NCBI GenBank assembly: GCA_903824045.1
Contig: CAIJVD010000006.1
Coordinates: forward strand, 1 to 64,000
From: an uncultured Chlorobiaceae bacterium
GTDB lineage: Bacteria; Bacteroidota; Chlorobiia; Chlorobiales; Chlorobiaceae
Direction: 5' to 3'
DNA length: 64,000 bases
The stretch's first letter is position 1. Every line of letters begins with the position of its first letter. This document shows, one piece after another, positions 33,562 to 50,800 of the stretch. A program made the position numbers and the translations under genes. The notes beneath the pieces were generated by a model that saw only the letters and a list, made by a program, of their open reading frames with translations, searched no databases and was not told the DNA's origin.

Positions 33562-33578
33562 TGGCACATTATGTGCAT
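33562..33578 (+). promoter_or_regulatory. Sigma-54 (RpoN) -24/-12 promoter of gvpA
   Basis: TTGGCACATTATGTGCA matches the consensus TTGGCACr-N4-TTGCW except for one base. GG (33564-33565) and GC (33576-33577) have exactly 10 bp between them, as required. Transcription would start near 33589, about 60 bp before gvpA. The core is also a 13-bp near-palindrome (GCACATTATGTGC). A gene for a sigma-54 activator closes the same cluster. Confidence 0.75.
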
Positions 33579-33650: not shown

Positions 33651-33857
33651 ATGGCAGTTGAAAAAACAATCGGCTCATCAAGCCTCGTAGAGGTTATTGA
33701 CCGTATCCTTGACAAGGGTGTTGTTGTTGATGCATGGGTAAGGGTATCGCTGGTAGGTATCGAGCTTCTTGCTATCGAAGCAAGGGTAGTCGTTGCCTCT
33801 GTCGAGACATACCTCAAGTATGCAGAAGCAATCGGCCTGACTGCTAAAGCTGCATAA
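33651..33857 (+). CDS. gvpA: Gas vesicle major structural protein GvpA
   Basis: The 68-residue shell protein self-assembles into the ribs of the gas vesicle wall. It has the highly conserved core [20 protein letters not shown], then [20 protein letters not shown] and [14 protein letters not shown] (helix-strand-strand-helix). Codon use is GC-richer than in most later gvp genes, as expected for very high expression. The start has ggag 9 bp upstream. A small hairpin with a bulge (33897-33916, no T run) follows and may reduce read-through into the next genes. Confidence 0.98.
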
Positions 33858-34016: not shown

Positions 34017-34631
34017 ATGAGTGCGGAAGAAATAAGAGAGACATCAACTGATAACTATGCAGTTGATGCAAGCCGAATAGCAAAAGTACAAAAGGCATTT
34101 GAGAGTTCAGAAAATATACATGAGTCGTGTTATTGTTTGATAAAAAATGTTGAAGAATCCCTTGAATCACTGAAAGGGTGTCGTAACGAGATAAGTTCAA
34201 GGCTTTGCGAGACACTTGCAAAGAATGAATCCATGCGAAAAAAAGATTTCAATATAATCATGGATGATATATATGGAATTCTTGCTGAAAAAGAGAAAAA
34301 TGCATGGAGTGATTTTATAGAATATGTAGAAGATCAAAAAGAGTTTACAGGATCAATGAAGAATATTATTCTGAATATTCAGGATTATATGCAAAAGGAA
34401 GATTCGGGGAAAAGTGATCTCTTGAAAAGGGAGTTGATGCAAGTTGCTGCACTTCAGGAAGAACGGAAAAATAGTGTCACAAAAAAACTGACTGATTTCC
34501 AAAATATGCATAGAAGAGTAATGAAGTATCTGGAGTCACTGCTTACTCTGGGGCACGACATTAAAATCAAAGATATACGGTTTGCAAAAACAATGATAGA
34601 TTTCAGAAGCACAGTAAACGTTACAATCTAA
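34017..34631 (+). CDS. Helical/coiled-coil protein of the gas-vesicle cluster, function unknown
   Basis: 204 residues, highly charged and almost all helical, with long heptad-like stretches (about 30-150) and no membrane segment or signal. I do not recognise a family. It lies 159 bp after gvpA and 17 bp before the large repeat coiled-coil protein, so the two are probably one transcript. Its AT-rich codon use matches the gvp genes, not the flanks. It might be a minor shell-associated or assembly protein (inference from position only). Confidence 0.75.
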   Translation: MSAEEIRETSTDNYAVDASRIAKVQKAFESSENIHESCYCLIKNVEESLESLKGCRNEISSRLCETLAKNESMRKKDFNIIMDDIYGILAEKEKNAWSDFIEYVEDQKEFTGSMKNIILNIQDYMQKEDSGKSDLLKRELMQVAALQEERKNSVTKKLTDFQNMHRRVMKYLESLLTLGHDIKIKDIRFAKTMIDFRSTVNVTI

Positions 34632-34648: not shown

Positions 34649-35818
34649 ATGGGTTTAGCAAATGGAATGAAAGGACTCAGTGAAGAGATACTTGAGTCTT
34701 TCAGAGCGAGGATTATGGATAATGATGCTCTTGTTTCCTCAGTTCAGCAAAAAATGGGTGAACATCGGGAAAGTCAGAAACAGACAGCAGAGATTCTCAG
34801 GGCAAACGCCGCATCCTTACGGGTTAACCTTGACCATAATGAAAAAGCCAGAGTTGCAAATTTTGACAAGTTGATGGACGGAATCAAGAAAGATATTAAG
34901 GGAATTGAAAAAGAGGTAAAAAGCTCAAAAAACTCAACAAATAATTTGTTGAAAGAGTTTTCGGAAGCAAGAAACAAGCTCAGTAATGAACTGGACGCCT
35001 TTCTTTCTCATGAAAACAAGCAGCGCATTGAGAATGAAAAAACAAGAATGGCAGAGTATGAGCTGTTTATTACTAAAATAAGTGACGAGGTGAGCAGCAT
35101 TTTTAGCTATACCAATGAAATGCTCAATACGTTTAGTGATGATCATAAAGAGATGTCATTGGAATTACAAAAAGATCTTGCAAATAACAAGAGCGAGCGA
35201 TTGGAGTATACTCAAGGATTACTAAAGAATATACAAGAGCGTATAGCTGAGATAAGCAGGGAGAATAATGATGCGGCAAGCCAGCTGAAACAGGATCTGA
35301 AGAACGGAGAGACTGACAGGATCAAGCAGTATAATGAACTGTTTGACAGGATCAGCAGTGAGGTGTCGGAACTCAGAAAATCTACCGCCAGCATGCTTGA
35401 TGGATACGCTCGGGATCGATCAAAAGGCGGAGAGGCCTGGAGTGAAATGCAGAAAGAGATAGCCGCCCATAAAAACGGAAATACTCCCGTGGTTACTCAT
35501 TCTGTCGTAAAGGCAGTTGCGCCAGCTGCGCCTAAGATGGAGATCGCGCCCCAGGTCATTGTCGATATTCCTCCGGTTGAGGAGGTCGTTTCTGAAGTCT
35601 TTAATAAAATTGTAGAGAGTGTTGATGATAGTTCATTGGAAGAAAAAATCCTGGACTATATCAAAACCCATACCTATGGCGTCAAGGTCTCCGAAATGGA
35701 GCTCCCCCTAAGAGAGACAAGGATGAAAATAGGTTTTGCCGCTAAATGTCTTCTGGATGCAGGCAAGGTATCGAAAGTCGACAACCTTTACTATCCAGCA
35801 AAAAAAGGGTTCAACTAA
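34649..35818 (+). CDS. GvpC-like repeat coiled-coil protein with C-terminal winged-helix-like domain
   Basis: 389 residues in three parts. Residues about 1-280 are long amphipathic helices with imperfect repeats built on R/K-x-x-x-Y/F-x-x-L/F-x-x-x-I-x-x-E-V-x-x-I/L (for example EYELFITKISDEVSSI and QYNELFDRISSEVSEL), resembling outer-surface GvpC proteins. Residues 280-320 are an Ala/Pro/Val linker. Residues about 325-389 (EEKILDYIKTHTYGVKVSEM; RMKIGFAAKCLLDAGKVSKV) look like a winged helix ending in a short strand. GvpC stiffens the vesicle wall; that role here is inferred from repeats and position. A strong terminator follows. Confidence 0.75.
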   Translation: MGLANGMKGLSEEILESFRARIMDNDALVSSVQQKMGEHRESQKQTAEILRANAASLRVNLDHNEKARVANFDKLMDGIKKDIKGIEKEVKSSKNSTNNLLKEFSEARNKLSNELDAFLSHENKQRIENEKTRMAEYELFITKISDEVSSIFSYTNEMLNTFSDDHKEMSLELQKDLANNKSERLEYTQGLLKNIQERIAEISRENNDAASQLKQDLKNGETDRIKQYNELFDRISSEVSELRKSTASMLDGYARDRSKGGEAWSEMQKEIAAHKNGNTPVVTHSVVKAVAPAAPKMEIAPQVIVDIPPVEEVVSEVFNKIVESVDDSSLEEKILDYIKTHTYGVKVSEMELPLRETRMKIGFAAKCLLDAGKVSKVDNLYYPAKKGFN

Positions 35819-35830
35819 CAGCTAAGGTTC

Positions 35831-35881
35831 AAGCCAGACAGGATCATTAACAACAATGATGATCCTGTCTGGCTTTATTTC
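35831..35881 (+). terminator. Strong rho-independent terminator inside the gvp cluster
   Basis: A 17-bp perfect stem (aagccagacaggatcat with its complement at 35859-35875) and an 11-nt loop, then tatttcttttt. It ends the gvpA-to-GvpC-like unit and means gvpN onward needs its own promoter or read-through. Confidence 0.85.
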
Positions 35882-35960
35882 TTTTTCTACCGTCAAGAAC
35901 GATGCAATTGCAACAATTAATTTTTCGCCACCTATGCGAAGTCAAGGTTATCAGAAAGAG

Positions 35961-36860
35961 ATGAGTACCGTACTTGAGCCAAAGCCAATGTCGAACTTTG
36001 TCGAGACGGACTATATAAGAGACATTACGAACCGCGGTCTTGCCTATATGCAGGCTGGATTCCCGGTCCATTTTCGTGGCCCGTCGGGAACAGGCAAGAC
36101 CACTGTTGCATTGCACCTCGCCAGCAAGATAGGGCGTCCTGTCGTTATTATTCATGGGGATTCTGAATACAAAACATCGGATCTGATCGGCAGCGAGCAG
36201 GGGTATAAGTACAGGCGTCTTGATGACAACTTTATTCACTCTGTCCACAAATACGAAGAAGATATGACGAAGCAGTGGGTCAACAATCGATTGACCATTG
36301 CCATAAAAAAAGGGTTCACCCTCGTCTATGACGAGTTTACCCGCTCACGCCCTGAGGCCAACAATATTCTGCTTCCTATTCTTCAGGAAAAAATGCTCAG
36401 CACCTCTTCGTCAAATGAAGAGGAGTACTATATGAAAGTTCATCCTGAGTTCAGGGCGATCTTTACCTCAAATCCCGAGGAGTATGCAGGCGTCAACCGG
36501 ACTCAGGATGCTTTGCGTGACCGTATGGTTACCATGGATCTTGATTATTTCGACTATGAAACCGAGCTGAAGATTACGCATTCAAAATCAGGCATGTCGC
36601 TTAAAGACTCTGAAAAGATTGTAAAAATTGTCAGGGGTCTGCGTGAATCAGGTAAAACAGAGTTTGATCCCACTATCAGAGGCTCAATCATGATTGCCAG
36701 GACACTGAATGTCCTTAACCAGAAACCGGATAAGGCGAACGAGTATTTCGTCAAAGTCTGTCAGGATATTCTGGCTTCTGAAACAAGTCGGGTCGGATCC
36801 AAAACAAATCAGGATAAGGTGCGCGTGATTGTTAATGAGCTGATCAATGAACATGCCTGA
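35961..36860 (+). CDS. gvpN: Gas vesicle AAA+ ATPase GvpN
   Basis: A 299-residue MoxR-type AAA+ ATPase needed for normal vesicle enlargement. The family's FVETDYIRDITNRGLAYMQA precedes Walker A GPSGTGKT (40-47). LVYDEFTRSRPEANNILLP follows with the Walker B acid pair near 125, then FTSNPEEYAGVNRTQDALRDR. Open frame exists upstream to 35856, but those ATGs lie in the terminator stem and encode no GvpN sequence, so MSTVLEPK (35961) is preferred. The ribosome site is weak. First gene of the second gvp transcription unit. Confidence 0.95.
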   Translation: MSTVLEPKPMSNFVETDYIRDITNRGLAYMQAGFPVHFRGPSGTGKTTVALHLASKIGRPVVIIHGDSEYKTSDLIGSEQGYKYRRLDDNFIHSVHKYEEDMTKQWVNNRLTIAIKKGFTLVYDEFTRSRPEANNILLPILQEKMLSTSSSNEEEYYMKVHPEFRAIFTSNPEEYAGVNRTQDALRDRMVTMDLDYFDYETELKITHSKSGMSLKDSEKIVKIVRGLRESGKTEFDPTIRGSIMIARTLNVLNQKPDKANEYFVKVCQDILASETSRVGSKTNQDKVRVIVNELINEHA

Positions 36861-36884: not shown

Positions 36885-37199
36885 ATGCATCTTTATAAGG
36901 ATAAAAAAGGGCTCAACTGCATCAAGACAATTCAGACCGTCTCAAAGTCTTCTGCGAGGGAGAGTGATGGTTCAGGATTTGTCAAGCTCTATATGCTTGA
37001 AAAGGAAAAGAACAGGCTAATGGCTGAAGAGACAAAAATCCTCAACAGAATGGAAGTGATCAAGGACAGACTGAGAGTAATAAGCGATATTTATGCGAAC
37101 AGTAGAGGGCTCCTTGAGAGTAACGAAAGTAGTGGTGATAAATTCAGGAGTTTCAATGATAAAAGCAATGGATTTTCAACCATTCAAATAGAGTATTAA
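36885..37199 (+). CDS. Small coiled-coil protein, GvpV-like
   Basis: 104 residues. The centre GFVKLYMLEKEKNRLMAEET followed by IKDRLRVI is a charged helix resembling the core of cyanobacterial GvpV (a Y-x-x-L/M-x-x-x-E/K-K-x-R-L pattern). The N-terminus is basic and the C-terminus polar and disordered-looking. GvpV is a small accessory protein of unknown action. It sits between gvpN and gvpJ with 24- and 10-bp gaps. The match is from pattern memory and needs a profile search. Confidence 0.55.
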   Translation: MHLYKDKKGLNCIKTIQTVSKSSARESDGSGFVKLYMLEKEKNRLMAEETKILNRMEVIKDRLRVISDIYANSRGLLESNESSGDKFRSFNDKSNGFSTIQIEY

Positions 37200-37209
37200 T
37201 AATAATACC

Positions 37210-37512
37210 ATGCCTGATTTAAAACATGCGGTGAACGCTACGGGTCTCGCTGATATTCTTGAGCGAGTTCTTGATAAAGGAATTGTTATTGCCGGGGATA
37301 TTAAAATTCAGATTGCTGATATTGACTTATTGACAATTAAAATCAGGCTGCTTGTGGCTTCTGTAGATAAAGCGATGGAAATGGGTATCAACTGGTGGCA
37401 GGAGGATCCGTATTTATCGATTAAAGCAAAGGAGAGTGAGCAACAAATCATCCATGAGGATTTGCAGGGCAGGATTGAAAGGCTTGAGGCGATGAACCAG
37501 TTGTCAAAATGA
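37210..37512 (+). CDS. gvpJ: Gas vesicle protein GvpJ (GvpA paralogue)
   Basis: The 100-residue minor structural protein is related to GvpA. The core LADILERVLDKGIVIAGDIK, then IQIADIDLLTIKIRLLVASV matches the GvpA fold. A C-terminal extension of about 40 residues (helical, EDLQGRIERLEAMNQL) is the feature of GvpJ/GvpM members. These paralogues are thought to start or cap the vesicle cone. It is followed 6 bp later by the Hsp20-like gene. Confidence 0.92.
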   Translation: MPDLKHAVNATGLADILERVLDKGIVIAGDIKIQIADIDLLTIKIRLLVASVDKAMEMGINWWQEDPYLSIKAKESEQQIIHEDLQGRIERLEAMNQLSK

Positions 37513-37518
37513 TACAGC

Positions 37519-38025
37519 ATGAAAGAAGATACTCACAATGAATTGGGATCGGATCTTTTCGGTTTGGGAGGCCTGTTTAAAGGGATTGAAAAAATCGTCG
37601 ATCTTGCAAAACAGTTGGAGGAGAAGGGTGGGCTGAATTCTGAAGCAGAGCTGAATTTGGATCACATAAGAAAAGGAATGAAAGGGGTTTATGGTTTTAC
37701 CGTCAAGTCAGCTATCGGCGGGACCCCAAAGGTCGAGACCTTTGGAAATATCACTAAAACCCCGAGTGGTCCAAAGGTTAATGACGAACGTGAACCCATT
37801 ACAGACCTTTTCGATGAAGATGATGCGGTAATCATTATAGCCGAAATGCCGGGTGTAGAGGAGGGTGATGTGACGGTGGAGATATGCCACGACATTCTTG
37901 ATATATCCGCCCGAAGTTCGAACAAGTATTATCACAAAGAGATATTGCTTCCGATTCCGTCAGATTCAGGGCATATGCAGAAGAAATATATTAATGGAAT
38001 CCTTGAAATACGAATAAGTAAATAA
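37519..38025 (+). CDS. Hsp20/alpha-crystallin protein (GvpH-like)
   Basis: 168 residues. The C-terminal half (about 93-168) is an alpha-crystallin domain: DLFDEDDAVIIIAEMPGVEE, DVTVEICHDILDIS, and a C-terminal YINGILEIRISK with the A/N-G-x-L motif. The N-terminal half has a Gly-rich FGLGGLFKGIEKIVDLAKQL segment shared with GvpH of haloarchaea. GvpH binds GvpA and prevents aggregation, so a holdase role in vesicle assembly is the likely function. It lies directly upstream of an ArsA/Get3-like ATPase. Confidence 0.85.
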   Translation: MKEDTHNELGSDLFGLGGLFKGIEKIVDLAKQLEEKGGLNSEAELNLDHIRKGMKGVYGFTVKSAIGGTPKVETFGNITKTPSGPKVNDEREPITDLFDEDDAVIIIAEMPGVEEGDVTVEICHDILDISARSSNKYYHKEILLPIPSDSGHMQKKYINGILEIRISK

Positions 38026-38033
38026 TTATTCAA

Positions 38034-38990
38034 ATGCCGCTTACTGGTTTGGAAAACAGTGAACTGAAGATGATTATTTTCGGCGGAAAAGGCGGTGTTG
38101 GGAAAACGAGTTGTGCAATTGCCAGTGCCATCGGTCTTGCAGAGAGGTACAAAACACTGGTGATTTCGACTGATCCAGCCCACTCAATATCTGACAGTCT
38201 GGATCAGCATATTGGTTTCAAAGTTCATCAGGTTGATACTGTTCCGAACTTGTTTGCTCTTGAAATATCTGCAGACAAAGCCTTTCAGGAGTTCAAAAAA
38301 GAGCATGAACGCGAGCTTATAAAACTGTTTGATACTTCAACAACTCTTGATGATGATGATATCCAGGAGATGATGAATCTTTCAATTCCCGGAATTGATG
38401 AAGTGATGAGTTTCAAGACAATAATTGATCTCATTGAGAAGAATGAATATGAGAAATATGTTGTAGATACCGCCCCAACAGGTCATGCGTTGAGACTCCT
38501 TTCATCTCCCGGTCTGCTTGATGGCTGGATAAAAATGGCAGCAAAGATGCGGTGGAAGTATCGCTACATGATAGAGTCATTTTCCGGTAATTACAATGAG
38601 GATGAGGCCGATGTGATGCTGCTTAATCTGAAAAAAACAGTCACAAGAATCTCCTCATTGCTCAGCAACGGTACAAAATGTGAATTTATCCCGGTCTGTA
38701 TTCCAGAAGATATGGCAATACAGGAGACTGCGAGACTTCTGAAGGAGTTGGGCAAGTACAGGATAGCCTCCCGACAGCTCATTCTCAACAATGTCATGGA
38801 GTCGGATGAGGCGGGATTCTGCCATCAGAGAAGAGTTGCCCAAATGAAGTATATCGCCCAGGCCGGGCAGTTGTTCAAGGGTATGCAGATTGTCACCGTT
38901 CCGGTTTTCCCCGAAGAGATTAAAGGGTTGGAGGCGTTGAAAAAATTGCGAGATGTATTATTTGGAGATAGAACCACTGCTCCTGTATAA
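38034..38990 (+). CDS. ArsA/Get3-like ATPase in the gvp cluster
   Basis: A 318-residue single-domain member of the deviant Walker A (SIMIBI) family. The P-loop is GKGGVGKT at 18-25, with STDPAHS (switch I) and VVDTAPTGHALRLL (switch II), then a helical region and VCIPEDMAIQETARL. No adjacent arsenic gene exists. The Get3 CxxC zinc pair is not seen. Get3/ArsA homologues chaperone hydrophobic membrane proteins; in this setting it might handle the very hydrophobic GvpA (inference). Its gene is packed 8 bp after Hsp20 and 2 bp before the CDC48-like gene. Confidence 0.85.
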   Translation: MPLTGLENSELKMIIFGGKGGVGKTSCAIASAIGLAERYKTLVISTDPAHSISDSLDQHIGFKVHQVDTVPNLFALEISADKAFQEFKKEHERELIKLFDTSTTLDDDDIQEMMNLSIPGIDEVMSFKTIIDLIEKNEYEKYVVDTAPTGHALRLLSSPGLLDGWIKMAAKMRWKYRYMIESFSGNYNEDEADVMLLNLKKTVTRISSLLSNGTKCEFIPVCIPEDMAIQETARLLKELGKYRIASRQLILNNVMESDEAGFCHQRRVAQMKYIAQAGQLFKGMQIVTVPVFPEEIKGLEALKKLRDVLFGDRTTAPV

Positions 38991-38992
38991 CG

Positions 38993-41134
38993 ATGAATAG
39001 CGATGAGCTGATACTGAAAGTCAAGGAAGCACTTGTAAAGGATGCAGGGCGTGCCATAGCCAGGGTTGATCCTCAGGACATGATACGTTGCGGCTTGGAG
39101 TCCGGCGATATAGTCCTGATTGATGCAAAGCGCTCCACACCAGTCAAAATCCTGCCCTCCTATCCTGATGACAGAAACAAGGGGATCATACAGGTTGATG
39201 GGATCATCAGGGAAAATGCCGGCGTGAGTATTGACGAAAAAGTTTCAGTCAAAAAAACCAGCTTCAGGATTGCGTCGAGGATCAGGCTCAAGGCCCTGAG
39301 CAAAACAAGTGCGCTTTCAAAAGCCGATAATGCCAAATACATCGGTTCCCTGATAAACGGACTGCCCGCTTCAAAGGGCGATAAAATCAAGGCGACCCTT
39401 TTCGGTTCAGGCTCCATATACTATACGATCACCTCCACTGCCCCTGATGGAGTCGTCCTCATTACGCCCGATACTCTTGTGCAGCTTGAACAAGCCGGAA
39501 AGACGGACGCCGCAGCCGAGAAGGTCAGTTATGAGGATATTGGAGGGCTTGTCAATCAGCTCCAGCGCATACGTGAAATGATCGAGCTTCCGCTCCGCTA
39601 TCCTGAAATATTTGAGCGTCTTGGTGTTGAGCCTCCCAAAGGGGTGTTTCTTTACGGCCCCCCCGGTACAGGCAAAACACTCATCGTCAGAGCAGTTGCG
39701 CAAGAGACCGATGCCTATTTCATCAATATTTCCGGCCCGGAAATTATGGGCAAGTATTATGGTGAAAGTGAAGCACGACTCCGCAATATCTTCGCTGAAG
39801 CTCAGGCCCATGCCCCATCGATCATCTTTATCGATGAAATTGACTCCATTGCACCAAAAAGGGAGGATATGGGTGGTGAAAAGCAGGTCGAAAAAAGGGT
39901 CGTCGCACAGCTTCTCTCATTGATGGATGGTCTGGAGTCACGAGGCAAAGTCATTGTCATTGGCGCCACCAATATTCCTAATTCAATAGATCCTGCACTG
40001 CGCCGGCCGGGCAGGTTCGATCGCGAAATAGCGATCTCTATACCCGATAAACACGGGCGTCTCGAAATCCTTCATATCCATACCAGGGGCATCCCGCTCT
40101 CTGAGGATGTGAACCTGCAGAGAATTTCCGAAATAACGCATGGCTTTGTGGGCGCGGATCTGGAAGCGCTGGCACGTGAAGCGGCGATGACGGCCTTGAG
40201 GAAAATACTTCCGGTCATCAACTATGAATTAGCCGAAATACCCTATGACCTTTTGATGCAGCTGGAAGTGACAATGGACAATTTCCTCGATGCAATGAAA
40301 GAGGTTGAGCCGTCAGCCATCCGGGAGGTATTTGTTGAGGTTCCCGATGTCAAATGGGAGGATGTCGGCGGGCTTGATGAAATAAAGAGTGCGCTGAAGG
40401 AGAGTGTTGAGTGGCCGGTCAAGTACTCCGAACTTTTTAAAACTACCAATACAAAGCCGCCAAAGGGAATCATTCTTCATGGCAGGCCGGGAACGGGCAA
40501 GACATATCTGGCAAAAGCGCTGGCGAGTGAAAGCGGATTGAACTTTATATCGGTCAAGGGCCCGCAACTGCTAAGCCGGTTTATCGGCGAATCGGAAAAA
40601 AGCGTCAGGGAGCTGTTCAGAATGGCGAAGCAGGCTGCGCCATCAATATTGTTTCTTGACGAAATCGACAGTCTTGCACCTGCAAGAAACAGCGGGAGCT
40701 CTGATTTAGGGGTTATTGAAAGAGTCATAAGCCAGTTTTTGACAGAGATGGATGGCATCGAGGAGTTAAAAGGCGTGACTGTTCTTGCTGCAACGAACAG
40801 AATTGACATGATAGACCAGGCATTGCTACGCTCAGGGAGATTTGACTTGATGTTTGAAGTGCCACTGCCTGACAGAGCGACTCGGGAGAGAATATTTGAA
40901 ATTCATACAAAACAGATGACACTCGGTAAGAGTGTTAATCTCATAAGCTTGTCAGAGAAGAGCGATCATATGACAGGAGCAGACATTGGGTTTATATGTC
41001 AACAAGCAAAGATGTGTGCACTTAGAGAAATTATTGGAAAGAGTGAGGCTGATAATAGAGATAAGGTGATCATTGATGAGGAACATTTTGATCGCGCAAT
41101 ACAAGTGCTCACAGCACAAAATAAAATACATTGA
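38993..41134 (+). CDS. CDC48/VAT-type double AAA+ ATPase in the gvp cluster
   Basis: 713 residues. An N-terminal double-psi-barrel-like domain (1-170) precedes two AAA modules. D1 Walker A is GPPGTGKT (222-229) and Walker [10 protein letters not shown]2 Walker A is GRPGTGKT (497-504), with R replacing the usual second P, and Walker B ILFLDEID. Arginine-finger segments ([16 protein letters not shown]) are present. It ends NKIH, so the HbYX proteasome-docking motif is missing. The family unfolds proteins or extracts them from complexes. Inside a gvp operon it may remodel vesicle or chaperone complexes (inference). GvpF/L follows 4 bp later. Confidence 0.9.
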
Positions 41135-41138
41135 GATA

Positions 41139-42167
41139 ATGAGTGCACTGGGAATTTATATATATGGGTTTGTATCTAATGCCAGAATTGATGCGTTAAA
41201 AGATATATTAATGCAGTCCGGGGTATATGCAATAGAGTACAAGAAAATATCAGCACTTGTGTCAGATACAAGAGAGAGTGGTATTGAGGGTTTGGAGAAA
41301 GAGTCTCTTGGAAAACTCCTGATAGATCATCAGCTCAAAATTGAAAAGATTAATGCGGCAGGGTGTGACAAAATTGTGCCAATGAAGTTTGGTACAATTG
41401 TCAGTTCAGGAAATGACATATACAGGATTTTGGAAGGGGGGTATGATGTAATTAGTAGTACCATCGATGCAATAAAGGCACTGCATGAAATGGATGTTGT
41501 TGCAAGGTGGAGTGATTTCGGAAATTTTATCAATAAAATTGCCAGCAATGCAGAAATTGTATCACTAAAAAATGTGATGGCACATCAAGACGCGTGTGAA
41601 GAAGTTGACATGGTAAGTATAGGGAGAGCAATAAAAAAGAAAGTTGATGAGAAGAACAGCAAAGCCAGAAAGGATATCCTGAAAGCTCTCATTCCAATTT
41701 GTAAAGACTATAAAAAGCAAGAAACGTTAAATGACGAAATGGTTATTAATGCGGCTTTTCTTATAGAGAGTAGTGAGAAAGAACGATTTATAGATGCAGT
41801 TGAGCAAACAGATTTAAAATATGCAGATGAGCTTGGATTCAAAATTGTTGGCCCATTGCCATGCTACAGCTTTTACACAATAGAGTGCAAGGCGATAGAA
41901 AAATCTGATGTAGAGAGTGCAATGCGGTGTCTGGAAATCGAGGTATTAAAAAGCGAGTCGGATATCAAAAAAGCCTATAGGGCAATGGCTTCAGTATCAC
42001 ATCCAGACAGCAGCCCAGAAAAAGCTAATGCTGATTCATCAAGATTTATTGAAATTCATAATTCGTACAAGCTATTAATGGATTACAGCAGTGCAACTAA
42101 AAAGTATGGATTGGAAATGAATGCTCTTGGTGCCGATCCGGTGTATGTGATTAAAATAAAGGAGTAA
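41139..42167 (+). CDS. gvpF/L: GvpF/L-family protein fused to a C-terminal J-domain
   Basis: 342 residues. Residues 1-265 are a GvpF/GvpL protein (MSALGIYIYGFVSN, KIVPMKFGTIVS, MVINAAFLIE, FKIVGPLPCYSFYTIE). Residues about 268-320 form a J-domain: ESDIKKAYRAMASVSHPDSS, with HPD at 288-290, then FIEIHNSYKLLMDY. HPD is the motif that stimulates Hsp70 ATPase. GvpF/L proteins bind GvpA and accessory proteins in a pre-assembly complex, so the fusion may deliver DnaK to that complex (inference). ATG 41139 is chosen from homology; the open frame to 41073 overlaps the CDC48-like gene. Confidence 0.88.
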   Translation: MSALGIYIYGFVSNARIDALKDILMQSGVYAIEYKKISALVSDTRESGIEGLEKESLGKLLIDHQLKIEKINAAGCDKIVPMKFGTIVSSGNDIYRILEGGYDVISSTIDAIKALHEMDVVARWSDFGNFINKIASNAEIVSLKNVMAHQDACEEVDMVSIGRAIKKKVDEKNSKARKDILKALIPICKDYKKQETLNDEMVINAAFLIESSEKERFIDAVEQTDLKYADELGFKIVGPLPCYSFYTIECKAIEKSDVESAMRCLEIEVLKSESDIKKAYRAMASVSHPDSSPEKANADSSRFIEIHNSYKLLMDYSSATKKYGLEMNALGADPVYVIKIKE

Positions 42168-42168
42168 C

Positions 42169-42948
42169 ATGTCAAGAGATGGTAAATATATATATTGTAT
42201 AATAGCAACAAGAAACGAATGCAACTTTGGAGAGATAGGGGTAGGAGGAAAAGGAAATATCGTCAACTCAATTGGATTTGAAGGACTCAGTATGGTGGTT
42301 AGCGATCACCGCTTGAATAGTATTGAAGTTAATTCAGAAAATATTCTTGCTCATCAAAAAGTAATTGAAGTGGTGATGAGCGAGTATAACAGTGTGATTC
42401 CCGTTCGATTTGGAACTGTTGCGGCCACTCCAGATGAAATAAGAAATCTTCTTGACAGACGGTATGCTGAGTTATCAGAGCTGATTCTCAGGTTCGAAAA
42501 TAAAGTTGAATATAATGTCAAAGGGATATGGAAAGATATGAACTTTATTTATAAGGAGATAGACGATAAGAATCTATTATTGCATCAATTAAGGGAAGAT
42601 ATTGAACGAAGTACAGATACAACTATACGAGAGAGTAAAATTTTGGATGCCTCCGGCTTAATCGATGAAAACCTCAAGGCTATGCGAGTTAGTGCGCAAG
42701 AAGAGCTTGAGAGTTTATTGCGAAAAACAACAGTAGGATGTAAATCAAACGCAATCTCTGCTGACGCAATGTTTATGAATACAGCTTTTTTATTAAATCA
42801 AGGTCGAGAAAAAGAGTTTGAAAATATACTGACATCATATGCTGAATTATATCCGGAAAAATTTGACTTTATTATTGCGGGACCTTTGCCGACGTTTAGT
42901 TTTATAGATTTGCACATTCTGCCTGAAAAATGGGAACGCAATGACTGA
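42169..42948 (+). CDS. gvpF/L: GvpF/L-family protein (second copy)
   Basis: 259 residues of the two-domain GvpF/L type: N-terminal KYIYCIIATRNECNFGEIGV, central VIPVRFGTVAATPDEIRNLL, and a C-terminal FMNTAFLLNQGREKEF followed by FDFIIAGPLPTFSFIDL. It begins 1 bp after the preceding gene's stop. Very AT-rich. Whether it is GvpF or GvpL in the haloarchaeal sense cannot be told. Confidence 0.92.
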   Translation: MSRDGKYIYCIIATRNECNFGEIGVGGKGNIVNSIGFEGLSMVVSDHRLNSIEVNSENILAHQKVIEVVMSEYNSVIPVRFGTVAATPDEIRNLLDRRYAELSELILRFENKVEYNVKGIWKDMNFIYKEIDDKNLLLHQLREDIERSTDTTIRESKILDASGLIDENLKAMRVSAQEELESLLRKTTVGCKSNAISADAMFMNTAFLLNQGREKEFENILTSYAELYPEKFDFIIAGPLPTFSFIDLHILPEKWERND

Positions 42949-42966: not shown

Positions 42967-43746
42967 ATGAAGAGTGATATGGATCCAGGTTTTGGGCGAT
43001 ATATTTATGGTATTATTAGAAATTCCGAGCCCGTCAATTTTGGTCAATTCGGTATAGGTAGTAATTCTGATCATGTCTATACTGTAATCTTCAAGAATAT
43101 ATCTGCAGTTGTAAGTTCATCACCAATAGTTCGGTATGAAGCAAGAAGAGTGAATATGATTGCTCATCAAAAAGTACTGGAAGAAGTTATGAAGCAATTT
43201 AGTGTGCTTCCAGTGAGATTCTCTACAATATCTCCACATGATAATGATGAAGCAATTATAAATATTCTTAAGGATGATTATCAGCGTTTTGATAATCTTC
43301 TCATTAAAATGAATAAAAAGAAAGAGATGGGTCTTAAAGTGATGGCATCTGAACAGCCTGTATATGAAAGCATCATACAAAAGCATGATAATATTCGGAG
43401 ACTAAGAGACAAGCTTGTGGACAAACCATTTGACAAGACCCACAAGGAACGAATCAAAATTGGGGAGATGGTTTTTTCGGCACTTAAGGATGAAATTGAA
43501 ATTTACAAGGATTATATACTTGGAAAACTCAGCCCAATAGCAGAAGATGTTAAGGTGAATGACAATTACGGTAATTTCATGGTATTAAATGCTGCATTTC
43601 TTATTAATGAGGAAAAAGAACCGCTCTTTGATAATGAGGTCAATCAAATTGATCAGAAATATGAGGGGCTTATGACAATAAAGTATGTTGGAACTCTCCC
43701 GCCATATAATTTTGTCAATTTGTCAATCAAAACATTGGGAGTATAG
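42967..43746 (+). CDS. gvpF/L: GvpF/L-family protein (third copy)
   Basis: 259 residues, same layout: RYIYGIIRNSEPVNFGQFGI, SVLPVRFSTISPH, MVLNAAFLINEEKE and MTIKYVGTLPPYNFVNLSI. It resembles the second copy most closely (both open with a KYIY/RYIY and NFG pattern), suggesting a tandem duplication. The stop overlaps the region used as gvpG leader. Confidence 0.92.
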   Translation: MKSDMDPGFGRYIYGIIRNSEPVNFGQFGIGSNSDHVYTVIFKNISAVVSSSPIVRYEARRVNMIAHQKVLEEVMKQFSVLPVRFSTISPHDNDEAIINILKDDYQRFDNLLIKMNKKKEMGLKVMASEQPVYESIIQKHDNIRRLRDKLVDKPFDKTHKERIKIGEMVFSALKDEIEIYKDYILGKLSPIAEDVKVNDNYGNFMVLNAAFLINEEKEPLFDNEVNQIDQKYEGLMTIKYVGTLPPYNFVNLSIKTLGV

Positions 43747-43769: not shown

Positions 43770-43985
43770 TTGTTTGCTCCTGTAAACGGACTTATTTTTA
43801 TCGCTAATAAAATTAACGATGTCGTTGAAAAGGAAACATCCGATGAGGGCGCAATAAAAGAACAGTTGATGATGCTTCAGCTTCAGTTTGAAATGGACGA
43901 AATTGATGAAGATCAGTACGACAAACAAGAGGATAACTTGTTAAGGCGCTTAGAGGAAATAAGAAAGAGTAAAGCCGGAAATTAA
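43770..43985 (+). CDS. gvpG: Gas vesicle protein GvpG
   Basis: The conserved body reads LFAPVNGLIFIANKINDVVE, then DEGAIKEQLMMLQLQFEMDEIDEDQYDKQEDNLLRRL, which is standard GvpG (small, helical, accessory). Listed from TTG 43770 (71 residues). The family usually has an LDD just before LFAPV, and here ILDDI is encoded in frame at 43755-43769 with no ATG, GTG or TTG before it. The frame upstream begins ATC TTT ATT. GGGAG at 43737-43741 sits 7 bp before that ATC (43749). The true start may be this rare ATC or the ATT at 43755. Confidence 0.9.
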   Translation: MFAPVNGLIFIANKINDVVEKETSDEGAIKEQLMMLQLQFEMDEIDEDQYDKQEDNLLRRLEEIRKSKAGN

Positions 43986-44005: not shown

Positions 44006-44278
44006 ATGATGAGCAAAATTACTGATGTTCGACATGCGGTTATCAGTTTTTTAAAAGAAAATATACATATCAATGATGTTACTGTAATTAAGATTGAAAA
44101 TGAAGGTGATAGATGGAGATCTGTAGCTGAAGTTTATGAGGATGATTCCTTTCTCAAATCAATGAACCTCCCTCCAAAAAAAACAAGACTGTTTTATACT
44201 GTAACTGTTGATTCTGAATTAGAGGTTATCTCTTTTCAAAGGACATCAAGTTATGACGATTCTGAAAATGAAGAATAA
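44006..44278 (+). CDS. gvpO: Gas vesicle protein GvpO
   Basis: 90 residues matching the GvpO family: an N-terminal helix, then VTVIKIENEGDRWRSVAEVY and KTRLFYTVTVDSELEVISFQ (an alpha+beta fold). A gggggaa ribosome site lies just before the start; ATG 44006 or 44009 could serve. GvpO is essential in haloarchaea and may act in expression or assembly. It overlaps the following GvpF/L gene by 26 bp. Confidence 0.88.
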   Translation: MMSKITDVRHAVISFLKENIHINDVTVIKIENEGDRWRSVAEVYEDDSFLKSMNLPPKKTRLFYTVTVDSELEVISFQRTSSYDDSENEE

Positions 44279-45101
44279 TAATGCGGATTCCGATTTGCCC
44301 GTACCAGCAGATAACTTGATGTACCTCTATTGCATAACTGCGGGAGCTCCTCTGCCTGAAAGTTATAAAGACGTCTATAAGATAAAAGTCATTGAGGTTA
44401 ACGGCTTATATGTTATCTATAAAGAGGTAGGGGCTGACGAATATTCCACCGATAATATCCAGCTCAAGATCAAGGATGCAGTTTGGCTTGATTTTAACGT
44501 AAGAGATCATCTATCGATCCTGACCTCACTTATGAACGTTACCACAGTCATTCCGTTCAATTTCGGTACTGTCTATCGAACCAAGGAACGGATGCTTCAG
44601 TTTATTGCTGATCATGAAGGTGATATCAGACATAATCTCTTATTTTTTGAAGGCAAAGAAGAGTGGAGCGTTAAGCTCTATTTTGAAAGGAAGACAATAG
44701 TAGATAATATCAACGATATCAGTGATGCTATTCGTAAGCTTGATGATCAGATCAAAATCAGTTTTCCTGGAAAAGCTTATATGCTTAAAAAGAAAAAAGA
44801 GGAGATTATTCAGAATGAGATTTATGATTTCTATATAAAGTGTTCCGCAAGAATATCCGATATTCTATGTTTCTCTTGTATTGATACCAAATTGCTGACT
44901 ATTCAACAAGATGAACGTGCTGACAACACAGAAGACATGATTCTAAACGGTTCATATCTCCTGTTGAAGGAAAATATTGCTGAATTCCATGCTTCTGTTG
45001 ACAAAATTCTTGATGACTACCAGTCAACAGGAGTAACTGTTGCAGTTACTGGTCCCTGGCCGCCATATTCCTTTATTAAAATGCGCTCTACGAATGAATG
45101 A
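44253..45101 (+). CDS. gvpF/L: GvpF/L-family protein (fourth copy)
   Basis: 282 residues: MYLYCITAGAPLPESYKDVY, TVIPFNFGTVYRTKERMLQF, ILNGSYLLLKENIAEF and VTGPWPPYSFIKM. The GPWPPYSF ending marks the GvpL-type branch (shared with the fifth copy), unlike the GPLP-type copies. A charged helix (about 155-185) fills the middle. Its stop overlaps the small GvpA-family gene by 8 bp. Confidence 0.92.
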   Translation: MTILKMKNNNADSDLPVPADNLMYLYCITAGAPLPESYKDVYKIKVIEVNGLYVIYKEVGADEYSTDNIQLKIKDAVWLDFNVRDHLSILTSLMNVTTVIPFNFGTVYRTKERMLQFIADHEGDIRHNLLFFEGKEEWSVKLYFERKTIVDNINDISDAIRKLDDQIKISFPGKAYMLKKKKEEIIQNEIYDFYIKCSARISDILCFSCIDTKLLTIQQDERADNTEDMILNGSYLLLKENIAEFHASVDKILDDYQSTGVTVAVTGPWPPYSFIKMRSTNE

Positions 45102-45285
45102 CGATGTATATGGACTAAGCAAAGAGGTTACAGTTCTCGATATTCTTGATCGGGTATTGACGAAAGGTGTTGTCATTACCGGCGATATAGTTATTTCGGT
45201 GGCCGATATAGATCTTATTTATGTTGGGTTAAGAGTACTCTTGAGTTCTGTAGAGACTATGAATAAAATTAAGACTCAAATCTGA
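45094..45285 (+). CDS. Small GvpA-family protein (GvpM/GvpS type)
   Basis: 63 residues with the GvpA core: EVTVLDILDRVLTKGVVITG, then VADIDLIYVGLRVLLSSVET. It is shorter than GvpJ and lacks its C-terminal tail. The start ATG 45094 overlaps the preceding stop; the extra upstream open frame lies inside the GvpF/L gene. Such paralogues are minor wall or nucleation components. Confidence 0.9.
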   Translation: MNDDVYGLSKEVTVLDILDRVLTKGVVITGDIVISVADIDLIYVGLRVLLSSVETMNKIKTQI

Positions 45286-45301
45286 TTTTTAGAACATATT
45301 G

Positions 45302-46060
45302 ATGAATATGTCACTAATAATATTTGGAATAGCAAAAAACTCCTTATCTCACGCTCAATCATCTCTGTTGATTGAGACTCTCTATAAAGAATCCGGCATC
45401 TCTCTTGACCTCTTCAGGTATAAAGAGATCGTATTTATCTTTGCTGACTATCATGAAGCCAATTACTCGATGTCAAGAGATGATCTCTTGAGATATGCGC
45501 ACGTTATTGAACATCTGGCGAAATCTATATCGCTTCTGCCGATGCGTTATAAATCGCTTGCTAATTCTACCGACCAGTTATCTGAACATGCAGAAAAAGG
45601 CTATCACCAAATTTTGACTAATCTGGAATTGATAGATCATAAAGAGGAGTTTGCTGTCAGGGTGCTAAGGTCCCCAAGTGCAGCAGATAACGAGGACGGA
45701 ACGCATATCGGTACGGACGAGCATCAACTCCAGGATGCGCTTTCTGGTGACAGCCCGAGCAGGATCTATCTCAGAACGAAGTATGCTGCCTTTAAGGCTG
45801 AAGAGCTGCGGGCGGTATATAGTGAAAATGTCAAAAGAAAATTTATAGAAGATCTCGCTCCGATATCGCTTTTCTATGAGTTTAAGAAGAGGTTATCCCC
45901 ATCAACGGTTATGGACGCAGTCGTTCTGGTCGACAAAGATAAGCGGAAGGCCTTGAGTGACTTGATTGCCGGAATGCAGAAGTTTTATCCCCAGCATAAT
46001 ATACTGATGACGGGCCCGTGGCCTCCCTACAGTTTCGCCAATATTGATATACAGTTATAA
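45302..46060 (+). CDS. gvpF/L: GvpF/L-family protein (fifth copy)
   Basis: About 252 residues: SLIIFGIAKNSLSHAQSSLL, ISLLPMRYKSLANSTDQLSE, VMDAVVLVDKDKRKAL and MTGPWPPYSFANIDI. It is the most divergent of the five but shares the GPWPPYSF end with the fourth. ATG 45302 or 45308 could be the start. The stop and gvpK start overlap (TAATG). Confidence 0.88.
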   Translation: MNMSLIIFGIAKNSLSHAQSSLLIETLYKESGISLDLFRYKEIVFIFADYHEANYSMSRDDLLRYAHVIEHLAKSISLLPMRYKSLANSTDQLSEHAEKGYHQILTNLELIDHKEEFAVRVLRSPSAADNEDGTHIGTDEHQLQDALSGDSPSRIYLRTKYAAFKAEELRAVYSENVKRKFIEDLAPISLFYEFKKRLSPSTVMDAVVLVDKDKRKALSDLIAGMQKFYPQHNILMTGPWPPYSFANIDIQL

Positions 46061-46404
46061 TGATCGAAGATAAACTGATTTTCTGTTCAGGTTCAGAGGC
46101 TGAAATGCTGGATGAACTAAGCAAATTCTCTTCGCAACCTTCGTCACATATTAACGCCACCCCGGGAAATACTGATTCCGGAATTGCACGCCTCGTCCTG
46201 ACACTTATAGAGTTAATCAGAAAGCTTGTTGAAAAGCAAGCAATGCACAGAATTGATGGCAACTCATTGACAGAAGAGCAGATAGAAAACCTTGGGGAGA
46301 CACTTATGAAGCTTGAAATGAAGATGGATGAACTGAAAAAACACTTCAATCTCACCGACAAGGATCTGAATCTTAATCTTGGTATTCTGGGTGACTTGCT
46401 ATAA
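46060..46404 (+). CDS. gvpK: Gas vesicle protein GvpK
   Basis: 114 residues. The GvpK core GIARLVLTLIELIRKLVEKQ, AMHRIDGNSLTEEQIENLGE, TLMKLEMKMDELKKHF and LNLNLGILGDLL is complete. GvpK is required for vesicle formation, with an unknown molecular role. Last gene of the forward gvp unit; only 10 bp separate it from the convergent regulator gene, with no terminator between. Confidence 0.93.
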   Translation: MIEDKLIFCSGSEAEMLDELSKFSSQPSSHINATPGNTDSGIARLVLTLIELIRKLVEKQAMHRIDGNSLTEEQIENLGETLMKLEMKMDELKKHFNLTDKDLNLNLGILGDLL

Positions 46405-46414
46405 GGGGTTGAGA

Positions 46415-47812
46415 TTATAACGTGTCGGCATCTGTCTTTCTGATCTCGATGTTGTACTTTTTCATTTTTCTGATCAACGCATGGCGACTTATTCCTAACT
46501 GCACTGCAGTTTTTGCTTGACAGTAGTCATTCTCATCCAGTGCTTTTCTTATAATATCCGCTACCGATGAATTGAGTTGATCATGATGCTGGCTCGTCAA
46601 TTCCTTTTGCTTATGGGTTGGCAAAGGAAAATCACACAGTTCCAGAGAGTCCCCACTTGATAATATTATTGCCCGTTCGGCCAGGTTCCGCAACTCCCGG
46701 ATGTTCCCCGGGAAACTGTAGTTCTCAAGCTCCTCAAAAACCTCTTTAGCAATGATTTTTATAGGCTTGTTGATTCTTGTTGAAAATTCATCAACAAAGT
46801 CAAGCAGCAGTGGCCCGATATCCTCTTTACGCTCTCTTAGGGGAGGAATGTTAATATGAAGCGTATTAAGCCTGTGCAGAAGGTCAAGCCTGAATCGCTT
46901 CTCATCAACCATCTTCTGTAAATCATAGTTAGTTGCCGCTATAAGTCTGAAGTTTGTTTTGATTGTTTTGGTGTCACCAACCCTTAAGATGACCCGTTCT
47001 TCTATTGCCCGCAGAAGCTTTGACTGCAGAGTTAACGGCATGTCTGCTATTTCATCCAGGAAGAGTGTCCCTTCATTACAAGTCTCAAATAAACCCTTTT
47101 TATCAGATATTGCACCTGTGAATGCTCCTTTCTTATGCCCGAAAAATTCACTCTCTATTAACGATTCCGTAAAGGCACTGCAATTTATTGCTCCAAAGTA
47201 ATTTTCTTTGTTTTTGCTCATGTGATGAATCAGTCGAGCAAAAACCTCTTTTCCTGTTCCGCTTTCTCCTGTTATCAGGACATTAATATCAGGATACTCT
47301 GAAGCTTTTTTTGCGAGCTCATATATTTCTATGATTTTCTTGCTTTTGCCAATGCAGTGCCGGCCCATCCTCGACTCTATATCTACAGAAATCAGCGAAA
47401 ACTTTTCTTCAGCAGCAGCAACTCTTCGCTGCATATCAAGATGTTTCTGAGTGCGCTCAATAGCAATCTTGATATCTATATACCGCATCGGTTTTCTTAA
47501 GTAATCAAATGCGCCCAGTCTTATCGATTCAATAACCGTATCCATGTCTCCATGTGCTGAAACCATTATTACTTCAATATTCTGATATTTTGATTTAATA
47601 TATTTTAACACATCAAGACCATTTGCGCCTACCAGTCGCACATCAAGAATGACGAGATCAATCTCGTGTTTCTTGAGTATCTCATATCCTGAGGCAACAC
47701 TATTCGCACAGTGCGAAATGAATCCGGCATTTTGCAGATAGTCTCCGATTTCGTTTGTAAAATCTAATTCGTCATCAAGGACAAGGATATTTATCAATTT
47801 ACTGTTATTCAT
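46415..47812 (-). CDS. Sigma-54-dependent response regulator (NtrC family)
   Basis: 465 residues. A receiver domain (phosphoacceptor D57 in LVILDVRL, with acidic LDDE near 13 and Lys near 108) is followed by a central AAA+ domain with Walker A GESGTGKE (182-189), GAFTGA loop (229-234, the sigma-54 contact) and LDEIADMP. A Fis-type HTH ends it (AKTAVQLGISRHALIRKMKK). It therefore should activate RpoN promoters such as that of gvpA. Start MNNSKLIN overlaps the kinase stop by 4 bp (ATGA), giving a kinase-regulator operon. Its target at gvpA is inferred. Confidence 0.93.
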   Translation of the reverse strand: MNNSKLINILVLDDELDFTNEIGDYLQNAGFISHCANSVASGYEILKKHEIDLVILDVRLVGANGLDVLKYIKSKYQNIEVIMVSAHGDMDTVIESIRLGAFDYLRKPMRYIDIKIAIERTQKHLDMQRRVAAAEEKFSLISVDIESRMGRHCIGKSKKIIEIYELAKKASEYPDINVLITGESGTGKEVFARLIHHMSKNKENYFGAINCSAFTESLIESEFFGHKKGAFTGAISDKKGLFETCNEGTLFLDEIADMPLTLQSKLLRAIEERVILRVGDTKTIKTNFRLIAATNYDLQKMVDEKRFRLDLLHRLNTLHINIPPLRERKEDIGPLLLDFVDEFSTRINKPIKIIAKEVFEELENYSFPGNIRELRNLAERAIILSSGDSLELCDFPLPTHKQKELTSQHHDQLNSSVADIIRKALDENDYCQAKTAVQLGISRHALIRKMKKYNIEIRKTDADTL

Positions 47813-50800
47813 CGTATGGATTTGCTCGGATTTGGAAAGGAGATTGTTGCACATGTGCCAGTCATAAGAGAGCTCTTGAACTTTATATCTCCCTGCATTT
47901 CTTTTATTATTCCGTAACTGATTGAAAGACCAAGCCCGCTTCCTTTGCCAGACTCTTTCGTAGTGAAAAATGGATGCATGATATACTCAATATTCTCATT
48001 ACTGATGCCTATTCCATTGTCTTCAATAGTGATTGTAACTGTATCGTTTTCATGAAACGACCTGATTTTAATTGTCATAGTAAAATCACTGTTTGTTTTT
48101 AGTTTCTTTTCTTCAAGCGCATCAATTGAATTATTAATCAAATTAAGAATGACCTGTTCAAACTTATAGGTGTTCCCAATAACTGATATTCTGTCTTGTT
48201 CAGGCTTGAAGTCTATAGTTATTAATCGTTTCTTGCATTGGGCGGTTATCATTAGGAAAGCATTTCTTATGCTTTTATTAATGTTGATAACAGAGGAGAT
48301 GTAGTTGTTGTCTTTGCTTGAAAATGAGCGGATATTATCTATTATTGTTTGAACTCTCAAGATATTTTCAAATATCTTTTCGGATTTAATCTTGATATTA
48401 TCCCTATCAATCTTGTTTTCGGAATCAATAAGTAGTTTTTCAACAATTAGTCCGATATTATTTATTGGCTGAAATATTTCATGGGCTATACCGGAAGCCA
48501 TTTCACCAAGACTGATGAGCCTTTTTGCATGGAACAGTTCGCTTTCAATAATCTTCCGCTCTGAAATATCTCGAATGATCATCATATAGGAAGAGGGCGC
48601 CCCGTTATGATCTTGAATAAGTGCAACACTTATTTCTGCTGAGAATATTGAATTATTGTTTCTCTTTATTAGCAGGATCTCTCTGTTTTGAGTCAGCCCT
48701 TCTCTCAGAGCTACTTCGTAAATATCATTCAGAATTTTAATATTATCCTGATATACAATGGTTGAGAATGATGTTCCGATTACATCACTTTCGCATTTAG
48801 CTCCGAATAGTTCAAGCCCTATATCTGAAACATTGCTGATAATTCCGTCAAGACTGGTTGTTATTATGCTGTCTGGTGATGCTGATATCAGTGTTTGATA
48901 TTGTTTGTACAGCCTTATTCTTGCCTCTTCAGATTCACTGTATTCCAAGGAATCTGTTATTAGAACGGCAATGGATTCAATTATTTCCGATTCACCAAAT
49001 ACAGGATATACTGATAGTTCATACACATTATTGGTGTAATGATTTTTGTTTTCTGCTATATCCTGTGTTCTGTCTCCAAAATGGCACGGCTCCCCTGTAT
49101 AGAAGACCAATTCAAAGTTTGTTTTTCGGTTGAGTTTCAGGTCTTTATTAAATAAATCATGAAAATCGTGCCCCTTCAGATTCCTTGCATCATCCCCGTA
49201 CTTCTCTGTAAAAAACTTGTTCGCTTCAATAATTGTTCCGTCTATCCCGATAGCGCACAGTGGTTCCCGGGAAGAATTCAAGAGTAGTCCAAGGTTTCTT
49301 GTATTGAACTGATGGGTAATATTCTCCTTTTTATACCCGGAAATGTCTATACAGAAACCTGCATACCGGTTGTCATTACGGTCATGTATATTAACCGGGA
49401 AACCACTATTCATGATTTGCCTTTTTGTTCCATATGAGTCACAGGCATTACACTCTATACTAAATGCCACGTTATTGCTCATTGCATTGCGCATGACCTC
49501 TTCCGTCCGCTTGCGATCAGAGGGTGCAACGGCCTCTATCCATTGTTTAAAGCCGCATTCTGACAAATTTTTATCAAGCCCGTAGAGCATCTTCATCTCT
49601 TCGCTCCACTTCATCGTTCCATTTCGAGTGTTCCACTCCCAGCGTCCGGTTACAGCGGTATGTATTGGTGAAAGCACTGCCACAAAGTGTCCCTTTTGCT
49701 GGCTATAGGCTTTGATTCGGAATCTTTTTAATGGATTCAGGTATAATTCACACTGTTCTCCCTTGCCACTCATTGCAACTCTTCCCAGTGTGGTGATGAG
49801 TTCCTCATTTGTTTTTTCGATACCCGGCACAACCTCAGATATTCTCCAGCCCTCAAGATCTTCAAATCCGGTCATTATTTTGAACTGCCGATTGACCACT
49901 TCATAGACAAAGTCAACCGGGTGGCCGTTATCAAATATCATCCGGCAGTATGCAAATGCATATGAAGCATTGTAGAGCAGGTTTCTGTAACTGCTCCTGT
50001 TTTCAAGAATCTCTGTTTCAGAGGGGTTAAGTGCGGTTATGTTTACCGAGAAGATGAGCATTTGCATGACGAGCCCATCCCTGAAGGTCACCGGGTATAC
50101 CCTGTGGAGATAGAGCTGACCTTTCAGCTCCCCTTCAAAAGAGATGTGTTCTCCTGTTTGCAGAACCTGCTCTATTTTGTTTCTCGCTTTGTCGGAGATT
50201 TCGGGGGGCAGGAGGTTGTAGAGTACCGAGCCAAGCACCTCTTCCTGCTTATTGCCAAACCGGTCGATAAATGCTTCGTTAGCCGTAAGGATAATTCCCT
50301 GACGGTCAATCAAAAAGACCGGCTCCGAAAACTTGTCAAACAGAGTATGGATCGACTTGTCATATTCTGAATGCTCCTCTCCAGAGTGAAGGAGTTCAGT
50401 GCCACTGTATGCCGATGTTACCTTGAGCACGCGAAGCGGGACGGCGGAGAGAGATTCATAGCGTTTGCGATCTGTTATATCATGAATGATGCAATAGCGC
50501 AAAACTTTTGTCGAGATTCCGATATCGTTGCTGTAAATCTCAACATCGCGTACCGATCCATCGGCTCGCTTGTGGCGGACTGAAATGCGGTTTTGCGATG
50601 AGCATGACCCTCCATCCCTGTCAGGAGTTGCCTCGTCCGGACTGATCGCATTCATATCCTGAAGGCGCATTTGTCTCAGCTGATCTGACGGCCAGCCATA
50701 AAAGGCAGCAGCGGCCTCGTTTGCCTTTACAATCCGGCATGTATTGGGGTCAATAACGAGCATTGCGGCCGAATGGCGTTCAAAGAGCATCCTGAATCGA

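Follow-up and report, generated by a model that had tools for sequence, protein, structure and literature searches.

GvpF binds GvpA/GvpA2 and has been proposed as its chaperone, and GvpL binds GvpJ/GvpM (PMC11445434, PMC9501494). Gvp genes accompanied by hsp20 and an arsA homologue have been described in several phyla, Pelodictyon luteolum and Polaribacter included (Castillo and Saier 2010, PMC2963123). J-domains, for their part, need the HPD motif to stimulate the ATPase of Hsp70 (PMC7289447, PMC1906734). In class C J-domain proteins, HscB/Hsc20, DjlA and TopJ among them, the J-domain is joined to an unrelated module that binds the client and serves for targeting.

In the 64,000-nucleotide stretch of DNA from an uncultured Chlorobiaceae bacterium analysed here (the window), a J-domain is joined to a GvpF/L domain inside a gas-vesicle cluster. 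We refer to the GvpF/L-J-domain fusion as FLJ, and to the FLJ protein encoded in the window as P0001. FLJ resembles the class C proteins named above in its HPD within the helix II/III loop, its basic helix II and its linkage to a targeting module, and differs from them in that this module is GvpF/L. With the GvpF/GvpL family (6l5d from Anabaena, 4qsg from Microcystis) it has in common the whole GvpF/L domain and the location in a gvp cluster, to which it adds ~85-90 residues, namely the J-domain and a conserved C-terminal strand. The cluster of the window also carries an ArsA homologue and Hsp20 among its gvp genes, as do those of Castillo and Saier; however, DnaJ and CDC48 are mentioned nowhere in that study (PMC2963123), and the ATPase of the window is single-domain and Get3-like. 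The presence of ArsA and Hsp20 in gvp clusters has been on record since 2010. No description of a GvpF/L-J fusion or co-chaperone was found in the full-text literature searched, which includes few subscription journals; the architecture may stand without comment in domain databases.

GvpF/L and a J-domain in one reading frame

The gene and its parts are as follows:

41139-42167, + strand: FLJ gene, GvpF/L domain and C-terminal J-domain, 342 aa (ORF read, Pfam)
41151-41876, + strand: GvpF/L domain, residues 5-246 (Pfam PF06386, 4.9e-43; VIA-align Z 19.5 to the GvpF crystal structure 6l5d)
41901-42107, + strand: J-domain, residues 255-323, with predicted helices 255-264, 273-287 and 293-323 (Pfam DnaJ, 39.5 bits; AlphaFold2 model; 5nro_B, Z 8.0)
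42000-42008, + strand: HPD motif, residues 288-290 (sequence, alignment)
42141-42158, + strand: conserved strand after the J-domain, residues 335-340 (strand in the AlphaFold2 model; dN/dS 0.06 for residues 334-342)

The preliminary description of this locus had claimed a complete GvpF/L domain joined in one frame to a J-domain with an intact HPD, and this is what we find. The frame runs without an internal stop from an ATG that lies 4 bases past the stop codon of the upstream CDC48-like gene; an alternative in-frame TTG exists at 41073, and Chlorobiaceae orthologues start at the equivalent of the ATG. The GvpL_GvpF match is near full-length (positions 1-244 of 245 in the Pfam model, 148.4 bits against a cut-off of 23.6), and that to DnaJ (PF00226, residues 264-317, E 6.2e-10) is significant, standing well above the curated cut-off of 27.8 bits and rising to 42.8 bits when the J region is searched by itself. 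Among solved structures, the top matches to the C-terminal 84 residues are DnaJ-family J-domains. The HPD falls within DIKKAYRAMASVSHPDSS, residues 275-292 of P0001. Beyond GvpL_GvpF and DnaJ, P0001 has no other Pfam match of weight; indeed, these are the only two Pfam domains in P0001 and its homologues, which therefore lack the class A/B Hsp40 layout of an N-terminal J-domain followed by a G/F region and a zinc finger and/or C-terminal substrate domains. As the J-domain is C-terminal, we assign FLJ to class C. The four other GvpF/L proteins of the cluster have neither the J-domain nor the C-terminal strand.

In an AlphaFold2 model built on a 35-sequence alignment (mean pLDDT 90.7), helices I, II and III fall at the residues listed, and the HPD lies in the II/III loop. 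The N-terminal part of the model (residues 3-255) superposes on Anabaena GvpF (6l5d_A) over 232 residues at 3.0 Å, and the C-terminal part on the J-domain of DnaJ as crystallised with DnaK (5nro_B) over 61 of 63 residues at 2.3 Å, so that the helix II-HPD-helix III hairpin expected from the preliminary description is present in the prediction. That description had placed the J-domain at residues ~268-320: its numbering of H288 is correct, and the modelled domain begins earlier, at ~255. A Z of 8 is modest for helices on its own, and it is with the HMM match and the position of the HPD added that the predicted J fold becomes convincing. Residues 114-246 also give ferredoxin-like structural matches (Z 6-8), which are probably due to a common arrangement.

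By hand mapping onto the E. coli sequence, we take the P0001 counterparts of DnaJ Y25/K26/H33/D35/F47 to be Y280/R281/H288/D290/F303. These five DnaJ residues are reported to interact with R167, E217, L391 and L392 of DnaK (PMC13012618), and changes at Tyr25, Lys26, His33 and Phe47 to damage the function of E. coli DnaJ (PMC1906734). P0001 has both the basic helix II and the DnaK-contact residues; at position 281, only about one family member in two has a basic residue. It also has Ala at the position of DnaJ R27, SS after the HPD where E. coli DnaJ has R/K-N, and no helix IV QKRAA; R36 and helix IV are reported not to be essential in all Hsp40s (PMC1906734).

The gas-vesicle cluster around FLJ

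The neighbours of FLJ in the window are:

33651-33857, + strand: GvpA shell protein, head of the cluster (Pfam PF00741, 3.6e-16)
35856-36860, + strand: GvpN-type MoxR/AAA_5 ATPase (Pfam AAA_5, 5.7e-20, and position in the cluster)
37210-37512, + strand: GvpA/J-type gas vesicle protein (Pfam PF00741, 5.8e-17)
37519-38025, + strand: Hsp20-like small heat-shock protein (NF041800, 129 bits, slightly below the cut-off of 140; 4rzk, 3.8e-13)
38034-38990, + strand: single-domain Get3/ArsA-type ATPase (TIGR00345, 252 bits; best solved relatives are ARSA1/Get3 chains)
38993-41134, + strand: CDC48-family AAA+ ATPase, immediately upstream of FLJ (TIGR01243, 904 bits)
42169-42948, + strand: second GvpF/L paralogue, without J-domain (Pfam)
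42967-43746, + strand: third GvpF/L paralogue, without J-domain (profile match)
43770-43985, + strand: GvpG (profile match)
44006-44278, + strand: GvpO-like protein (22.5 bits, slightly below the Pfam cut-off of 25)
44253-45101, + strand: fourth GvpF/L paralogue, without J-domain (profile match)
45040-45285, + strand: GvpA-type protein, true start probably within the ORF (profile match)
45299-46060, + strand: fifth GvpF/L paralogue, without J-domain (profile match)
46060-46404, + strand: GvpK (profile match)

This order is near-fixed across phyla: gvpA, two coiled-coil genes, gvpN, a small gene, a gvpA-like gene, hsp20, Get3/ArsA, CDC48 and FLJ, followed by two GvpF/L, gvpG, gvpO, GvpF/L, a gvpA-like gene, GvpF/L and gvpK. 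The two coiled-coil proteins (34017-34631 and 34649-35818 in the window) belong to no clear family, and nearly all FLJ clusters have them between gvpA and gvpN; the small coiled-coil protein after gvpN (36885-37199) has a weak match to the GrpE model, in the coiled-coil part only (20.4 of 184 bits).

At the head of the cluster, a sigma-54-type -24/-12 element, TGGCACATTATGTGCA, lies at 33562-33577 (-89 of gvpA), and ten related loci from Chlorobiota, Bacteroidota, Ignavibacteriota and Spirochaetota have similar elements at ~-74 to -97 of gvpA. At its other end, and convergent to it, are genes for an NtrC-family response regulator (46415-47854, - strand) and a multi-PAS histidine kinase (47809-51633, - strand). 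The regulator is retained at the cluster end in seven Chlorobiaceae loci, with 66-75% identity, and is likely the activator of the gvpA sigma-54 promoter.

Distribution and origin of the fusion

Across 98 genomes of the class, 86 of them Chlorobiaceae, the fusion is present in 17 (in one it is split by a contig break) and a truncated remnant in one more, with eight further genomes having GvpF/L matches without J at the threshold used. Among the 86 Chlorobiaceae, CDC48 was found in the same 16 genomes as the fusion and is absent from that with the truncated remnant. In another family of this order the gvp cluster is compact (GvpF/L, G, GvpF/L, A, K) and contains no J, Hsp20 or CDC48, the CDC48 gene sitting elsewhere in the genome; the fusion is therefore not a general need of gas-vesicle clusters. 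A motif scan for A/G, Y/F and then HPD at helix II spacing found no free-standing J-protein in six gvp clusters without the fusion.

Further afield, a scan of ~85,000 species genomes with short patterns from known members, blind to GvpF/L-J proteins that differ at those patterns, returned 40 loci, nearly all from metagenome bins, labelled Chlorobiota, Bacteroidota, Ignavibacteriota, Spirochaetota, Nitrospirota, Omnitrophota, Saganbacteria and Patescibacteria. For Patescibacteria the label may result from misbinning, since the sequences concerned fall among the Omnitrophota rows of the tree. Likewise, a Bacteroidia-binned contig (L089) and a Chlorobiaceae bin (L086) agree exactly in the C-terminal region of FLJ and in the scores of every neighbour gene that is complete on the contig; judged by these sequences, L089 is probably misbinned. 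A plasmid search added a cultured alphaproteobacterium of a genus known for gas vesicles, Octadecabacter arcticus 238, whose protein is annotated merely as a GvpL/GvpF family protein and combines GvpL_GvpF with a DnaJ match barely above the cut-off (28.0 bits) and the motif SHPD. Its cluster has FLJ and Hsp20 and neither CDC48 nor Get3, so these two are not obligatory partners of FLJ. In all, the fusion is maintained in the gas-vesicle clusters of about nine bacterial phyla.

In a tree built from 89 GvpF/L domains (20 loci plus the window), five paralogue classes separate, each set off by a single branch, with support of 100/100 for the J class. An extension of 84-101 residues is exclusive to this class, and the simplest reading of its presence on one clade is that the J-domain was joined once, the fusion then spreading with the cluster.

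Proposed role of FLJ and its alternatives

From its domain content, predicted fold, conserved HPD, single clade and gene neighbourhood, we consider it probable that FLJ serves gas-vesicle biogenesis as a dedicated class C J-domain co-chaperone, which would bring DnaK to GvpA-type clients. Its GvpF/L domain would bind shell or seed proteins of the GvpA family, or else their accessory complex, like the studied GvpF and GvpL, and its J-domain would dock DnaK-ATP via the basic helix II and the HPD and trigger ATP hydrolysis, loading the cell's single DnaK onto the hydrophobic client. GvpA-type proteins would thereby stay soluble, ready for nucleation and rib insertion. Alongside, Hsp20 could serve as a holdase, the Get3-type ATPase as a carrier of hydrophobic helices and CDC48 as an unfoldase.

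The genome encodes one full DnaK, which retains the partner motif VKRIINEPTAA and the linker VLLLDV, and one J-domain besides that of FLJ, belonging to the ordinary DnaJ. A second Hsp70 dedicated to the gvp cluster was considered, and rejected given the single full DnaK.

Perhaps these neighbours form a complete, dedicated relay, in which the shell protein is held by Hsp20 and passed by FLJ to DnaK, with the Get3-type ATPase delivering the hydrophobic helix to the vesicle as it grows and CDC48 removing what fails - a tentative proposal that we find somewhat doubtful. In the yeast GET pathway, which leads from Hsp70/J-protein to Sgt2 and on to Get3, J-proteins help to pass Hsp70-bound tail-anchored proteins towards Get3 (PMC8054193). 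The likeness, a functional analogy only, lies in a J-protein, an Hsp70 and a Get3-type ATPase for a hydrophobic helix client; on the other hand, no Sgt2-like gene was noticed in the FLJ cluster, and where the yeast pathway handles tail-anchored membrane proteins, the client proposed here is a shell protein of the gas vesicle. If true, the relay would be a bacterial, organelle-specific counterpart of that from Hsp70/J to Get3.

Or could FLJ instead tag vesicles that have collapsed or been misassembled, and join Hsp20, DnaK and CDC48 in extracting and recycling GvpA? Hsp20, Hsp70/J and an AAA+ machine are the usual composition of a disaggregation line, and in nearly all FLJ loci CDC48 lies immediately upstream of FLJ, an adjacency that suggests recycling. 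Yet the Octadecabacter FLJ persists without CDC48 in its cluster, and the GvpF/L proteins studied so far act in assembly (PMC11445434, PMC9501494), which is why we favour assembly as the purpose and regard such a disassembly or quality-control function as unlikely.

The DnaJ profile is matched independently by 34 of the 35 aligned homologues (E <= 0.001), which come from Chlorobiota, Bacteroidota, Ignavibacteriota, Spirochaetota, Nitrospirota, Omnitrophota and others, and the J-domain is thus more than a chance resemblance. Across the same alignment the HPD is kept at H in 34/35, P in 35/35 and D in 34/35 sequences, A279 is invariant, position 280 is Y or F, and F stands at 303 in 32/35. Among 13 Chlorobiaceae orthologues, the GvpF/L domain has a median dN/dS of 0.12, helix II with the HPD 0.14, helix III 0.16, the loop after the HPD 0.77 and the C-terminal tail 0.06; these values are rough, as synonymous sites often approach saturation. 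Helices II and III are under purifying selection. Nowhere is the extension more constrained than in its C-terminal strand (consensus PLYLVKIKK or NLILVKIKE).

A broken HPD is confined to two cases, both outside a complete cluster: in L088, where most gvp neighbours are missing, the motif is replaced by LPE and the DnaJ score is just 16.1 bits, and in L103/L124 a truncated FLJ has YPD. The motif seems to decay once the cluster is gone; two cases are a small number, though both point in the same direction. L103 and L124 are labelled Pelodictyon luteolum isolate CIII, and the truncated FLJ is all that remains of the gvp cluster in the stretch examined; a full cluster is reported for P. luteolum strain DSM 273 (PMC2963123).

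These patterns weigh against the idea that the J fold was kept as a docking or structural module, without Hsp70 action. The deviations of P0001 in helix II and the loop (R27 to Ala, RN to SS) would suit it, as would the LPE of the L088 branch, but that branch is the one that lacks most gvp neighbours, and in nearly all homologues the HPD, the very part required for ATPase stimulation (PMC7289447, PMC1906734), is preserved over large divergence while the adjacent loop evolves freely; we therefore think such a module quite improbable. A chance resemblance, or an artefact of frameshift or read-through joining two genes, can be dismissed, as homologues from about nine phyla share a single frame of the same length and, almost without exception, match DnaJ on their own, and no point in its support was found.

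FLJ bears on how the very hydrophobic GvpA and its kin avoid aggregating before the gas-vesicle wall is assembled. An Hsp70 switch built into a GvpF/L protein suggests DnaK as its partner, on which H288Q offers a single-residue handle, and would extend the J-domain proteins to a new kind of client. It may also aid the design of gas-vesicle reporters with better expression in foreign hosts. That the fusion has been kept in gvp clusters of about nine phyla suggests that Hsp70, in the form of DnaK, is used there on the water-repellent proteins of the vesicle.
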